Positions 869-64,000 of a DNA stretch of 64,000 nt are shown here, in pieces. Each line of letters begins with the position of its first letter. The stretch's first letter is position 1. A model generated the notes under the pieces. It worked only from the letters and a program-made list of their open reading frames with translations. It ran no database searches and had not been told where the DNA came from. The translations under genes and the position numbers were made by a program. The DNA is from Cephalotus follicularis (Eukaryota; Streptophyta; Magnoliopsida; Oxalidales; Cephalotaceae), in assembly GCA_001972305.1 (NCBI GenBank), contig BDDD01002926.1, positions 114,035 through 178,034 on the forward strand, given 5' to 3'.

Positions 869-1140
869 GTCGACTCCATTTCTGGAATTTTTTTTGCTTT
901 GCAAAACAGAGTCGACTCCTTTTCTGGAAAAACTCGTATTTTATGAAAATGCCGTCGACTTCTTTTGAAAAACGTCGATCCCTATGTGTTTCTTTAAAAC
1001 ACGTCGACTTCTTTTTCAAATGCGTTGATTCGTTTTAAAACGCACCGTTTTTACAGCCAAATTTTAAGATTGCGTCGACTCCTTTTAGAATCACGTCGAC
1101 GTCTTTTCCTCAGAAACTCGACTTCTCCATAAAAGTCGAC
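869..1140. repeat. TCGA-palindrome array between pol and env-position ORF
   Basis: About eight copies of GTCGAC or GTCGA-centred motifs lie at 869, 911, 954, 973, 1004 and onward to 1135, most in the context CGTCGACTTCTTTT or CGTCGACTCC. The same motif fills Sirevirus LTRs elsewhere in this window, but here it is internal, between RNase H and the accessory ORF. The minus-strand copy has an equivalent array at 45860-46100 in the same relative place. Confidence 0.8.
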
Positions 1141-1346
1141 CTTTTGTTCATTCCTCACTTTCCCTCTCTATTCTGTGTTTTCAAAAATTTTCTTATCACT
1201 CTGTTTTTCTTCAAAAATCTTTCTAGTTGATCGTAAATCATTCTCTCATCTTTTCTCTATCCTCAAACACCATTTTTTCGTCTGTCCAATCCACTGTTTG
1301 TCTCACTCTGTGTGTTTCCCCTTGTGCTCACAACCTGTTTGTAGAA

Positions 1347-2656
1347 ATGCCGAGGACAAAGCAACCTGCCAAAAAGAAGGCTGCCTCGTCTTCTCAACCC
1401 AAGAAATCTGCTAAGAAGCAGAGATTAGAGATTAGGGAATCTTCCTCTGAATCTTCTCATTCTGATTCCTCATCAGAAGTGCCTATCCCCATTAGAAGTG
1501 TGAGTTTTGTTGAAAAACGAGTCATGGGAGGCAGAAACATCGATTTCGATTTCTGTTCTTCCGAATTCTCCTTTGTTTCTTGGTTAGATGACCTACATCT
1601 ACTTCCCCTTGTCCAAATCTCTAACCCATTTTACATAAAATTGGTTAAAGATTTTTACTCTAACCTAAAAATGGTTTCGGCTCAAAATGAGGAATTTGCA
1701 ATCACCTCAGTTGTTAAAGGCCAACGGATATATCTTGATGCTAGGATTTTAGCTTCAATCCTTCACATTCCACATACCGGTATTTATGTCTTTGAACATA
1801 AAAAATGGCCGGAGGTTGAGGGTTTTCACCCTAACCAAATTCTATCGATTTTGTATCCCAATGATCCAAACATTCATCCAAACATGGCTCTGACAACTAA
1901 TCGATTATCTGTTGATCTAGACTTCTTCACCACCTCATCGTGCATCAAATTCTACCTACCTGTGGAGGGTATGCCAAATTGTTTAGGATGCAAGTTTTCA
2001 TTATGTGGTGCATCCTATCGAAAATCGAATTTTGTTTCCCTCTCTTAATGCTCAAGACGATGGTAAGAGCATTTTCTCAGAAGAAATCCGTACTTCCTTA
2101 CGGATCCATTCTTACCCTAGTCTTCCTACATTGTCATATTCCACTTGAAGGGGAGATCTCAACGAAGTTGAAAAAGGAAGATACGTACAACAAAAGCACT
2201 TTAAATCGTATGGCATGGAAGAAGGAGCAAGGAATCTGGACATATGTGCCTAGAGCGGATCAAGCTCCAAGAATCGCAAGGGAGGAGCAAGAGGACAACC
2301 CTCCTTGGGAACAAACTGCCCCTGCACAAACTGCCCCTGCCCCTGCTCAGCCTCATGCACAAGGAACATCATCCTCCACTGATTATGATCGGATGATGGA
2401 GTTTATGCAAGCTAAATTTGCTTCCATGGAAGCCTCACTTAAAGAAATCAACACTCGGCTTGGAAGATTGGAGGGTGATCATCAAGTAATTCAATCTGAC
2501 TTCTGACACATTGATGACTCCTTCTTCTATGATTTAAAAGTCACAAAGAGGGGTTTGAAGAGAATGGAATGGAAGCTCGCTCAATCCAAGACCATTGATC
2601 AATGTGAAGAAACCTCGGGCGGCGAATCCGATTCCGATTCTACTCCTGAATCTTGA
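1347..2656 (+). pseudogene. Sirevirus env-position accessory ORF remnant with H3-tail-like N-terminus
   Basis: The start at 1347 is chosen because the minus-strand copy (45657) begins at the equivalent codon. The protein opens MPRTKQPAKKKAASSSQ, then a Lys/Ser-rich basic stretch and an acidic Ser-rich stretch. A conserved core follows (KRVMGGRNIDFDFCSSEFSF, ILASILHIPHTGIYVFEHKK, EGFHPNQILSILYPNDPN), which I recognise as the plant-transposon domain seen in env-position ORFs of Sirevirus-like elements. The tail (DRMMEFMQAKFASMEASLKE) looks like a coiled coil. I see no signal peptide or membrane segment, so a true envelope role is doubtful. The copy is broken. A pyrimidine-rich leader ending in tttgtag just before the ATG resembles a 3' splice site, but the other copy does not share it. 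Confidence 0.75.
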
Positions 2657-2894
2657 TGTTTTTGTTGTTGTTTCTACCTTTAATTTGTGTTGATGTTTTG
2701 CTGTTTTGCTGTTGTTATGAACCTTTGAGTTCATTTTCTTGTTTTTGTGTTTGTAATGAACAAGTTTAAATTTAATGATATTAATGAAATGTTTATGCAA
2801 TTTGTGTTTATGATCGTGTTTTATGAATTGTGTTTACAATTATATGAATGATTTTCTGATATAATTGCATTGAATGACTATGTCTTCTCAATTT
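2657..2894 (+). other. Sirevirus 3' noncoding region
   Basis: T/A-rich noncoding sequence follows the accessory ORF. Its phrase around 2775-2850 (repeated aatgaaatgtttatg and gaattgtgttta) matches the reverse complement of 63850-63960 in the Sirevirus at the right edge, so it is the shared 3' region of the family. The polypurine tract and LTR were lost at the junction with the next element. Confidence 0.7.
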
Positions 2895-61735: not shown

Positions 61736-63157
61736 AGAAAGGGACTGAGAATTTGGTGGCTGACCATTTATCCCGACTTTCCAATGCACCCGAGGTCCAT
61801 GGCCCGATTGATGAAAGTTTTCCTGATGCGCAGCTTATACTCGTTGAGAGTGAAGCATGGTATGCGTACATAGTGAATTATCTTTTTACGGGAATTGTAC
61901 CATCCAAGTGGTCTGCTCAAGATAAGCGTAGGTTTCTTTTGCAAGCGAAACATTTTTTCTAGGATGATCCTTATCTTTTCAAAGCATGTCCTGATTTAAT
62001 TTTGCGACGATGTGTTACTGATCACGAGCATCGCTCAATTCTGTCTTTTTGACATGATCAGGCGTGAGGTGGCCATGTTGGCCCAACCAAAACAGCAGCC
62101 AAAGTTTTACAATGTGGTTTTTATTGGCCGACCATTTTTAGATATGCTTTTTAGTACTGTCGAGCTTGTGCTTCCTGTCAATATTTAGGCTGTGTGACAA
62201 AACATAACATGATGCCTTTGACACCGATTTTGACGGTTGAGATTTTTTATGTTTGGGGTATTGATTTTATGGGTCCGTTTCCCAAGTCGTTTGGGAATTT
62301 ATATATCCTTATGGCTATTGACTTGTTTCAAAGTGGATAGAGGCGATTCCTTATCGAACCAACGACAATTTCATCATTGCCAAATTTCTCAAGGAACATA
62401 TATTTTCTCGTTTTGGCCCCCCACGTGCCATTATTAGTGATAGGGGTACTCATTTTTGCAATCGTTCTTTTGAAGCCCTTATGAAAAGGTATGGGATTAC
62501 TCACAAGCTCGCTACATCATATCATCCTCAAACAACTGGGCAAGTTGAGGTATCTAATTGCCAAATCAAACAAATTCTCAAAAAAATAGTCAACCCCAAT
62601 AGAAAGGATTGGTCCACGCAACTTTTGGATGCTTTATGGGCTTATCGAACCACTTTCAAGACTGACCTTGGTCAATCTCCTTACCGGCTTGTACACGGTA
62701 AAGCTTGTCATCTTCCTGTGGAGTTAGAACATCGAACCTTTTGGGCTATCAAACAATTTAATTTTGATCATTCCACTGTGAGTAGTCATCGTGCGCTTCA
62801 ATTATCTGAGTTAGAAGAAATTCGAAATGATGTGTATGACAATGCAAAGATTTCCAAAGAAAAGACCAAGGACTTTCATGATGCGCGGATTTCAAAGAAG
62901 AATTTTGAAGTAGGAGACAAAGTGATTTTATATAATTCACGATTACATATGTTTCCTGGAAAATTGAGATCCCGTTGGGATGGTCCTTATGTTATTAAAA
63001 ATATTTTCTCACATGGTGTTTTTGAGATATGTAAGCTAGGTACTGACGATGTTTTCAAAGTTAACAGGCAGCGATTGAAGAAATTTTTAGAGTTTCTGGC
63101 TGCGGCAATGGAGGAGGCCATGGACTTACATGAGCCTCTTTATTTTGAGCCTCCATG
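61736..63157 (+). pseudogene. A3 integrase
   Basis: The lead-in reads TENLVADHLSRLSN-like text and DESFPDAQLILVES. The catalytic core has [24 protein letters not shown] text near 62420 and [60 protein letters not shown]. The group-specific [20 protein letters not shown] follows, then the C-terminal [20 protein letters not shown] and [20 protein letters not shown]. It would insert the cDNA. Broken, mainly in its first half. Confidence 0.85.
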
Positions 63158-63277
63158 ATCATATTCGGTAAATTGTTCTTTATTTTATTGCATTGTTTCT
63201 TATATTTTCTTGATCATGCATTTTTATTTCTTTAGTTGGTTTTTATTGTATTGAGGACAATGCAAGATTTAAGTAAA
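63158..63277 (+). other. A3 post-pol region, cut by Sirevirus
   Basis: Matches 7706-7825 of A1 (tgatcatattcggtaaa, ttgaggacaatgca) and then stops at the Sirevirus LTR. Confidence 0.75.
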
Positions 63278-64000
63278 CTTGAGAGTCGATGTCTTCTTCT
63301 GCATATGGTATTTTGCCTTGGTATTGAACTTGTAATTTCTTGCACATCAAGTAAACTTGTTAAATGCAAATATGTTATCATCAAAACAAGGATTGGGACT
63401 GAATCGTCAACAATCTCCCCCTTTTTGATGTTGACAAAAATTTGCTCAAAAGGCATAAATTAAAGTAATACCAATTTAAAACATAAGTAAATATAATGTG
63501 AGCAATGGCAGCAATGGCAATGTTCATGCAATATCAAATAAGCAATGAGTTTGAGTCTTAATCTCCCATATTGAGCCTTTTCTCCCAAAATTCATAAACT
63601 CAAGCATTTTGAGCCTATTATTCTCCCCAAACATATTTCTTTTGAGCCATTAACATTTCTCCCCCTTTTTTGTATAGCATCAAAAAGTTCTACAAAAGGC
63701 AGAAATCATTAGCTCCCCCTTAATAAAAGCAAGGGTAAAGAGAGTGAATATAGGCATTATGCATAAAAATATCAAAATATCAGTAATGAATATAATTATC
63801 GGCAATAGTTGAGAAAACATAATCATACAACACAATTATATCATTAATCAAAAACTCATTCATACAATCATAAACACAATTCATAAACATAATTTCATAA
63901 ACACATAAACATTTCATTAATATCATTAACAAACTTTGTTCTTACAAAATTATAAATAAACACTTAGTTTCATTACAACACAACTAAAAACAAAAAAAAA
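63278..64000 (-). mobile_element. Sirevirus fragment S4 (3' end, minus strand)
   Basis: On the minus strand it enters from the right edge with 3' noncoding sequence (63427-64000), then a polypurine tract (63413-63426) and the first 135 bp of its 3' LTR (63412 down to 63278, starting TGTTGACGATTC). It is closely similar to the LTR B boundary. Further ctcccccttttt and ctcccccttaat copies lie near 63660 and 63713. No ORF is supported. It is truncated at 63278 against A3. Confidence 0.8.

Follow-up and report, generated by a model that had tools for sequence, protein, structure and literature searches.

Why should short palindromes centred on TCGA recur in dense arrays in retrotransposons of different superfamilies within one plant genome? 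The question arises from a 64-kb stretch of the Cephalotus follicularis assembly (1.577 Gb in 9746 contigs), positions 114035-178034 of contig C2926, here called the window, the bulk of which is made up of nested long terminal repeat (LTR) retrotransposons. An initial annotation of this DNA described such arrays in at least fifteen places, in the LTRs of a Sirevirus (copia) and of Athila and Tekay-type elements (gypsy), and explained them as the convergent capture of one regulatory signal. The TCGA-palindrome arrays are real, ordered, and genome-wide in this plant. They are of a known general kind, the Sirevirus palindromic motifs, which here crosses superfamilies and is largely phased with the DNA helix. 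As to their role, the balance of probability tips slightly towards operator arrays that present one face of the helix to a dimeric DNA-binding protein and that would have spread partly by exchange, a reading drawn from sequence features.

The excess of these palindromes is large. TCGA occurs 268 times in the window, and when a site was called palindromic if at least four of its six flanking pairs were complementary, 65 such sites were counted against a mean of 8.5 and a maximum of 18 in 100 dinucleotide shuffles. For GTCGAC, whose observed and expected densities the annotation had proposed to compare, the count was 60 against a mean of 6.3 and a maximum of 12 in 100 such shuffles. Of all 16 possible 4-mer cores that are self-complementary, just three exceeded every shuffle of the window: TCGA and two AT-rich ones, ATAT and TATA. 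The dense arrays described earlier were recovered as 14 clusters of at least three boxes each, which hold 102 of the 154 RTCGAY boxes, and their rarity in pol was likewise borne out, GTCGAC having a density of 0.10 per kb in the coding part (19.4 kb, marked from domain matches) and 1.30 per kb elsewhere.

The same excess is found outside the window. Twenty contigs were sampled systematically, with one ten-kb stretch from each (bases 100,001-110,000), and the stretches contained 82 palindromic TCGA sites against 19.2 in shuffles (maximum 31, 20 shuffles). Clusters numbered 20, spread over 10 of the 20 stretches, against 0-2 in ten shuffles; these 20 include three non-palindromic clusters in or beside gypsy pol (L021:6031, L025:3804 and L031:2159). 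Palindromes centred on ATAT, TATA, and AATT likewise topped all 20 shuffles, and among the cores that contain C or G only TCGA lay far above the shuffles, in the 200-kb sample as in the window. In these stretches (L021-L040), TGCA-centred palindromes were slightly raised (53 vs 36, shuffle maximum 48). For the whole assembly, each pattern was compared with the same pattern read backwards: AAAGACGTCGATGTCTTT gave 18,614+18,817 matches against 86+75, AAAGCGTCGACGCTTT 3,552 sites against 5, pairs of AGTCGACT 15-45 bp apart 155,105 against 452, and pairs of TCGAYGTCTT 55,556+56,369 against 286+260. A pattern scan of IMG/VR returned 12 loci with a single match each.

The elements that carry the arrays in the window are of several kinds. 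Element X is a gypsy element on the minus strand (~26,597-48,905) whose LTR pieces are ~96% identical; Sirevirus LTRs sit inside its 5' LTR, and its 3' LTR is interrupted by a solo LTR (28,030-30,044, target duplication GGTCC). Further elements are the gypsy elements T1 and T2, LTR-like insertions named W, an Athila-like insertion in T1 (17268-19395, target duplication GTGGG/CCCAC by eye), and the Athila-like element Z (57-63 kb). In element Z, gypsy gag, protease, reverse transcriptase, ribonuclease H, and integrase were found, and no match to a chromodomain. By eye, a tRNA-Asp-type primer binding site (TGCCGTTGCCGGGGA), which we take to be the Athila site, follows its 5' LTR at ~57350. The label Athila rests on the primer site and the polypurine tract, and on gag similarity. 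The Tekay name given earlier is no more than a label, no chromodomain match having been obtained in the integrase open reading frame (ORF) of element X, which was the scope of that search. Nor do all arrays lie in LTRs, as had been thought: those at 871-1137 and 45867-46089 directly precede an ORF of the PF20167 family that occupies the env position of the Sirevirus. The arrays and associated features of the window are as follows.

871-1137, plus strand: Sirevirus pre-ORF array, eight RTCGAY boxes near CGTCGACTYCTTTT, immediately ahead of a PF20167 ORF copy; homologous to 45867-46089.
1227-2503, plus strand: decayed PF20167 (Transposase_32) ORF copy in two open pieces.
8918-9400, plus strand: start of an Athila-like 3' LTR, after a polypurine tract; array at 9132-9364 largely CpG-decayed, TATA at LTR offset 561.
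11159-11206, no strand assigned: three boxes of ACAGTCGACTG type, in steps of 26 and 21 bp.
13604-13703, no strand assigned: four boxes, mostly of AAGCGTCGAC type.
18907-19175, minus strand: nine intact boxes in the 5' LTR of the Athila-like insertion (17268-19395), with half-site TCGACGTCTTT.
24229-24323, minus strand: two boxes in a gypsy LTR-like insertion (21538-24441).
25127-25261, no strand assigned: four boxes without a 21-bp step.
27990-30124, minus strand: CAGTCGACTG boxes of the element X 3' LTR, split by the solo LTR at 28030-30044.
29616-29848, minus strand: four intact AAGCGTCGAC-type boxes in that solo LTR (GGTCC).
35402-35493, no strand assigned: three GCGTCGACGC-type boxes in an LTR-like insertion within the reverse transcriptase region of element X.
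39876-40247, minus strand: 11 boxes of a third, divergent Sirevirus LTR.
42704-43896, minus strand: Sirevirus LTR2, with an array of 15 boxes at 43215-43772 (element sense AAAGACATCGACGTCTTT) and a candidate TATA 103 bp past the last box.
43899-43925, minus strand: polypurine tract before Sirevirus LTR2.
44323-45657, minus strand: PF20167 ORF in env position, 445 codons with two internal TAG.
45867-46089, minus strand: pre-ORF array, eight boxes, 210-432 bp before the ORF start.
46600-47160, minus strand: Sirevirus LTR1 array, 15 boxes; LTR1 is 95% identical to LTR2.
47553-47749, minus strand: CAGTCGACTG array in the 5' LTR of element X (gypsy, primer site at 38822).
57067-57138, plus strand: four GCGTCGACGCC-type boxes near the 5' LTR end of the Athila-like element Z.

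The Sirevirus pieces at 39536-47285, inside the 5' LTR of element X, are arranged as one LTR, the pre-ORF array with its ORF, another LTR, gag, and the divergent LTR, which resembles a tandem or recombined element. At 28025-30049, the solo LTR insertion with the GGTCC target directly adjoins a GTCGAC box of another LTR; a weak insertion preference for palindromes has been reported (PMC6911290).

Arrays are thus present in the LTRs of one Sirevirus, of two Athila-like subfamilies, and of several other gypsy families, so that the sharing by unrelated lineages proposed for the window is confirmed genome-wide by the assembly counts and the sample stretches. Two classes of box can be told apart. 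Class I reads AAAG(A)CRTCGAYG(Y)CTTT, with near variants. The Sirevirus carries it both in its LTRs and in the pre-ORF arrays, and it is also the class of the Athila-like and W LTRs and of some further gypsy LTRs. Class II reads (A)CAGTCGACTG(T) and is found in X-type LTRs and in other gypsy LTRs of the sample. The likeness between lineages was measured over six flanking positions that had not been used in picking the boxes, against 500 draws of background boxes. On average, 3.11 of the six positions matched between Sirevirus and Athila boxes (background 1.60; 0/500 draws as high), 2.64 between Athila and W (0/500), and 2.20 between Sirevirus and W (2/500). The Athila LTR at 18900-19205, singled out earlier for its almost Sirevirus-like motifs, fully deserved the remark: it averaged 3.54/6 against a background of 1.61 (0/500 draws), and its array at 18907-19175, in element sense, has an asymmetric half-site, TCGACGTCTTT, identical to that of the Sirevirus LTRs. 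Class II boxes had been counted as the same motif, and here the claim fails, as their flanks matched those of other boxes at 1.34-1.69/6, not above background, and they have only the GTCGAC core in common with them; with the first flank position included, which was used in picking, W and Athila boxes did exceed background against class II (0 and 4/500). The notion of unrelated LTR backbones stood for the most part. Once the boxes were masked, with within-family matches and self-overlaps of one stretch set aside, between-lineage similarity vanished in the window, apart from two matches, one of 32 bp between two gypsy LTRs and one of 16 bp between a Sirevirus LTR and an Athila LTR.

Regarding the factor that might read these boxes, the bZIP C-box proposed in the annotation was rejected as the shared signal, because two of the three box types, GCGTCGACGC and CAGTCGACTG, lack GACGTC. 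The CBF/DREB half-site RYCGAC presumably fits GTCGAC on both strands. At 47540-47765, GCCGACTG and CAGTCGGT variants, which we take to resemble dehydration-responsive element half-sites, lie between CAGTCGACTG boxes and are base-paired to one another in the predicted fold. The number of CG sites per box ranges from one to three. In Athila subfamily 1 LTRs (L061-L080), 51 of 155 boxes read TCAA/TTGA instead of TCGA, a change of the kind expected from decay of methylated CG, the box rule admitting only such changes. No clear pattern of CpG decay was seen in LTR pairs, where sites were few.

The distances between boxes are far from random. In 13 arrays of the window, 37 of 74 neighbouring boxes stand 19-22 bp apart, against 13.8 expected from random placement (maximum 26 in 5000 placements). 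Taken array by array, the spacing is strong in the two large Sirevirus arrays and reaches P about 0.03 in one Sirevirus and one Athila array; the nine non-Sirevirus arrays, pooled, gave 16/36 against 7.3 expected (0/10,000 as high). The proportion at 19-22 bp was 36/90 in the sample stretches and 46/81 in Athila subfamily 2 copies. Among the first 100 class I pairs listed, all of them from contig C1, related copies included, and within a search range of up to 45 bp, 73 lay at 19-22, 8 at 30-32, and 17 at 41-43 bp, with 2 elsewhere; 98 of 100 therefore fall at two, three, or four helical turns, where class I distances cluster. The first 100 class II pairs, drawn in the same way, lay at 19-22 bp (79), 27-28 bp (11), 33 bp (1), and 41-42 bp (9). 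In 39 distinct class II pairs exactly 21 bp apart, the nine middle bases of the spacer average 28% identity. That steps of ~21 bp are kept despite differing spacers is a new observation.

The arrays also have a preferred place. The 15 boxes of Sirevirus LTR2 lie at offsets 124-681 of 1193, mostly but not wholly in the upper half, ahead of a TATAAAA at 784. The Athila copy with the 18907-19175 array has its boxes at offsets 216-484 and a TATA at 579, and in the Athila 3' LTR that starts at 8918 they lie at 215-447 ahead of the TATA at 561. A candidate TATA follows the last box by 95-114 bp in three of six LTRs scanned (one Sirevirus, two Athila). For Athila subfamily 1, 20 of 40 scored copies were taken, mostly the best, with the window's own left out: 19 of the 20 LTRs carry at least four boxes, and in 18 the first box stands at LTR offset 203-230. 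For subfamily 2, 12 of 40 scored copies were taken; nine have the array, all with TATA at 579-635. Sirevirus-type boxes also occur in other gypsy LTRs, ~690-980 bp into the LTR in L021 and 180-1530 bp into it in L024, in both after an integrase and a TGTAACG LTR start; L026, a relative of L021 (78%) with its polypurine tract, likewise holds a gypsy LTR with the Sirevirus-type box, again after integrase. With boxes masked, L021, L024, and L026 had no sequence in common with the Sirevirus LTR at an E-value of 1e-3. Together with the helical spacing, the position of the arrays before TATA in Sirevirus and Athila LTRs supports a cis-regulatory reading.

In the Sirevirus, a second array precedes the PF20167 ORF. 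This ORF belongs to a large family (95 scored of 15,268 first-look genome matches), and all 120 relatives listed, of 446, are from C. follicularis, with up to 99% identity. Ten of the 95 scored copies were sampled, 92-96% identical to the query and hence not independent: all ten have 6-10 boxes ahead of the ORF, at a distance of 210-478 bp, nine have two or more polypurine-like runs downstream of it, and in nine at least three LTR boxes lie within reach after these runs. The protein has a basic N-terminus, with 9-12 lysines or arginines in the first 40 residues (three copies), a C-terminal helix predicted at low confidence, and a hydrophobic stretch near residues 217-238, which leaves a membrane role possible; its structure prediction, based on 28 Cephalotus copies, has a mean predicted local distance difference test (pLDDT) score of 37. 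A divergent homologue (L029, 34% identity) has seven GCGTCAACGC-type boxes 241-566 bp upstream, where the background is 0.70 per kb, and a second one (L040) has a single box. All seven GCGTCAACGC/TTGA boxes of the former (L029:8421-8746) read TCAA or TTGA, none TCGA, and two palindromes AACGCTAAGNATTAGCGTT stand upstream of this homologue at L029:8593 and 8685.

Arrays can also be present or absent as a whole. Array-less LTRs of Athila subfamily 2 jump from position ~185 to the flank, with TATA at 267-268 instead of ~583, so that they differ from the array-bearing ones (L081-L083 vs L084-L092) by one ~316-bp block with GCAGAA-like sequence at both edges. At the right edge of the Athila array, 14 of 15 bases outside the boxes agree with Sirevirus LTR1 (0/1500 random window flanks as good) and 13 of 15 with LTR2 (1/1500), in a test designed after the likeness had already been seen. 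This likeness beyond the boxes speaks for exchange of arrays between the Sirevirus and one Athila subfamily, which we consider likely. The match at the left edge is weak (9/10, equalled by 42/1500 random flanks), and no edge is common to the Athila array and L021, the one other gypsy array tested, or X.

How might such arrays work? In the operator reading, each palindrome would be the site for a dimer of a putative DNA-binding protein, and the intervals, mostly of two, three, and four turns, would align the bound proteins on one face of the helix. The operators would precede the LTR promoter and, in the Sirevirus, the extra ORF as well; proteins bound there together could serve as an enhancer, or else protect an open promoter from CG methylation. 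Unrelated lineages of one host would exploit the same or related factors and so come to have the same type of operator; arrays would grow, shrink, and come or go as a block, and one was probably passed at least once between the Sirevirus and an Athila family. Binding, activation, the factor involved, and the transfer with its direction are what we infer here, and a host factor appears more likely than one encoded by an element. The earlier idea of convergent capture of one regulatory signal keeps its regulatory part, through the TATA position and the helical spacing, whereas convergence is limited by the signs of Sirevirus/Athila exchange and by class II sharing the core only.

Several observations weigh against operator arrays of this kind. 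The 19-22 bp spacing was not significant in the other nine window arrays taken singly, and was found in just 42 of 135 spacings of Athila subfamily 1 copies; class II spacings of 27-28 bp and Sirevirus spacings of 47-49 bp are no whole helical turns, and the 100 listed pairs are not 100 independent events. Three of the six LTRs scanned (X, W solo, W24) have no TATA at 95-114 bp, just 8 of the 20 Athila subfamily 1 stretches have one past the array, and none was found in the interval from the pre-ORF array to its ORF in the ten copies sampled. Finally, 3 of the 12 Athila subfamily 2 LTRs are array-less, and two of these, which lie on different contigs, have 98.6% identity, so that array-less copies have probably multiplied and the array was probably dispensable for some rounds of Athila spread.

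The boxes could instead be read by the Sirevirus PF20167 protein, acting as a VANC-like anti-silencing activator from which Athila and other gypsy LTRs profit in trans. The pre-ORF array in every sampled copy, the size of the family, and the basic N-terminus with its tentatively predicted helix would suit such a protein, and there is precedent: a short motif that is dense in noncoding regions is bound by VANC21, and an unrelated element that VANC6 hypomethylates contains VANC6 motifs (PMC5735166). The poor predicted structure and the possible membrane protein point the other way, and of the divergent homologues L029, with its seven upstream boxes, agrees with the proposal, save that none of these keeps TCGA, while L040 with its single box does not. 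The domain is moreover not tied to these Sireviruses, because a sunflower Athila ORF is partly similar to PF20167 (PMC11728184). We regard this reading as unlikely. In a fuller version, the protein would recognise phased TCGA palindromes at its own gene and at the LTR promoter and counter silencing there, and unrelated gypsy lineages would have acquired the array, partly by block transfer, to ride on it; this is unlikely on the sequence features at hand and, if true, would amount to a pirated anti-silencing code common to LTR retrotransposon superfamilies. Spread of a single array cassette by recombination or template switching, with no convergence, is quite unlikely. The ~316-bp block with its GCAGAA-like edges and the right-edge matches are what it predicts, and a wheat gypsy LTR segment that also occurs in a copia LTR offers a precedent (PMC11302176), but the edge test was post hoc, the left edge is weak, the L021 and X arrays have no common edge, and the flanks of CAGTCGACTG boxes differ from those of other boxes.

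Two further explanations dispense with a binding protein. The arrays may act as RNA, folding after transcription into hairpins that feed small RNAs, mainly as a silencing or self-limiting feature. Full-length retrotransposon RNA runs through the pre-ORF array and through the U3 region of the 3' LTR, and would thus contain the arrays; in maize, small RNAs have reportedly been linked to Sirevirus LTR palindromes. Three arrays do form more stable predicted folds than any shuffle (z -5.80, -3.46, and -6.59), yet any palindrome array folds well, so that these scores do not discriminate between DNA and RNA roles, and hairpins do not predict spacings of two, three, and four turns with unrelated spacers. 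An RNA role is decidedly improbable. Very improbable is neutral minisatellite growth, in which functionless units of 20-22 bp are multiplied by slippage: Sirevirus arrays do contain internal direct duplications, box number varies among copies, and array-less copies have spread, but the spacers at 21 bp are unrelated (39 pairs) while boxes and distance are kept, unrelated lineages repeat the same core, and the first box keeps its offset in 18 of the 20 copies of Athila subfamily 1.

Compared with known systems, the arrays are closest in form to the motifs of Sireviruses. These were described as palindromic, with 8-32 per element in the upper LTR half upstream of TATA and an extra cluster before ENV (Bousios et al., 2010; PMC2829016). 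The Cephalotus Sirevirus agrees in having at least eight palindromic boxes, mostly in the upper LTR half, and, like the env-bearing Sireviruses of that account, a pre-ORF cluster followed by multiple polypurine tracts. Two of the published motifs, of Vitis (CGGTCGACCG) and of Tnd-1 (ACAATCGATTGT), are centred on TCGA. Here the core is GTCGAC/RTCGAY, unlike the CGG-CCG reported for all but Tnd-1, and the motif, called Sirevirus specific in 2010 and given there without demonstrated function, extends within this one genome to Athila-like and further gypsy LTRs; helical spacing is not named in the motif section of that paper (PMC2829016). As in the targets of VANC proteins in VANDAL elements, the motifs are short and dense in noncoding regions of the transposable element, change together within a family, and include one found in an unrelated element; VANC motifs, by contrast, are non-palindromic and of single orientation (PMC5735166; PMC10398659). 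The QuinCent segment, shared by einkorn RLG_Quinta and the copia RLC_Gisela, is likewise an inverted-repeat-type LTR segment in gypsy and copia elements, but it is one segment of ~162 bp linked to nucleosome placement and not a set of phased boxes in many lineages (PMC11302176). Literature searches on LTR palindromes and GTCGAC, with subscription literature mostly outside their reach, gave no recognised report of such arrays across gypsy lineages. VANC systems are encoded by Mutator-like DNA transposons; the Cephalotus elements are LTR retrotransposons, in which the PF20167 ORF is a candidate for the binding protein.

For the biology of these elements, the LTRs of one Athila subfamily that have or lack the array offer ready-made pairs for testing, and methylation or binding data could draw statistical power from the assembly's ~200,000 box pairs at distances of up to 45 bp, some of them perhaps counted on both strands. 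Arrays across gypsy lineages, mostly spaced by whole turns and fixed before TATA in Athila LTRs, point to a common DNA-binding protein, and like arrays in unrelated families, often just upstream of promoters, suggest a common activating or anti-silencing switch.

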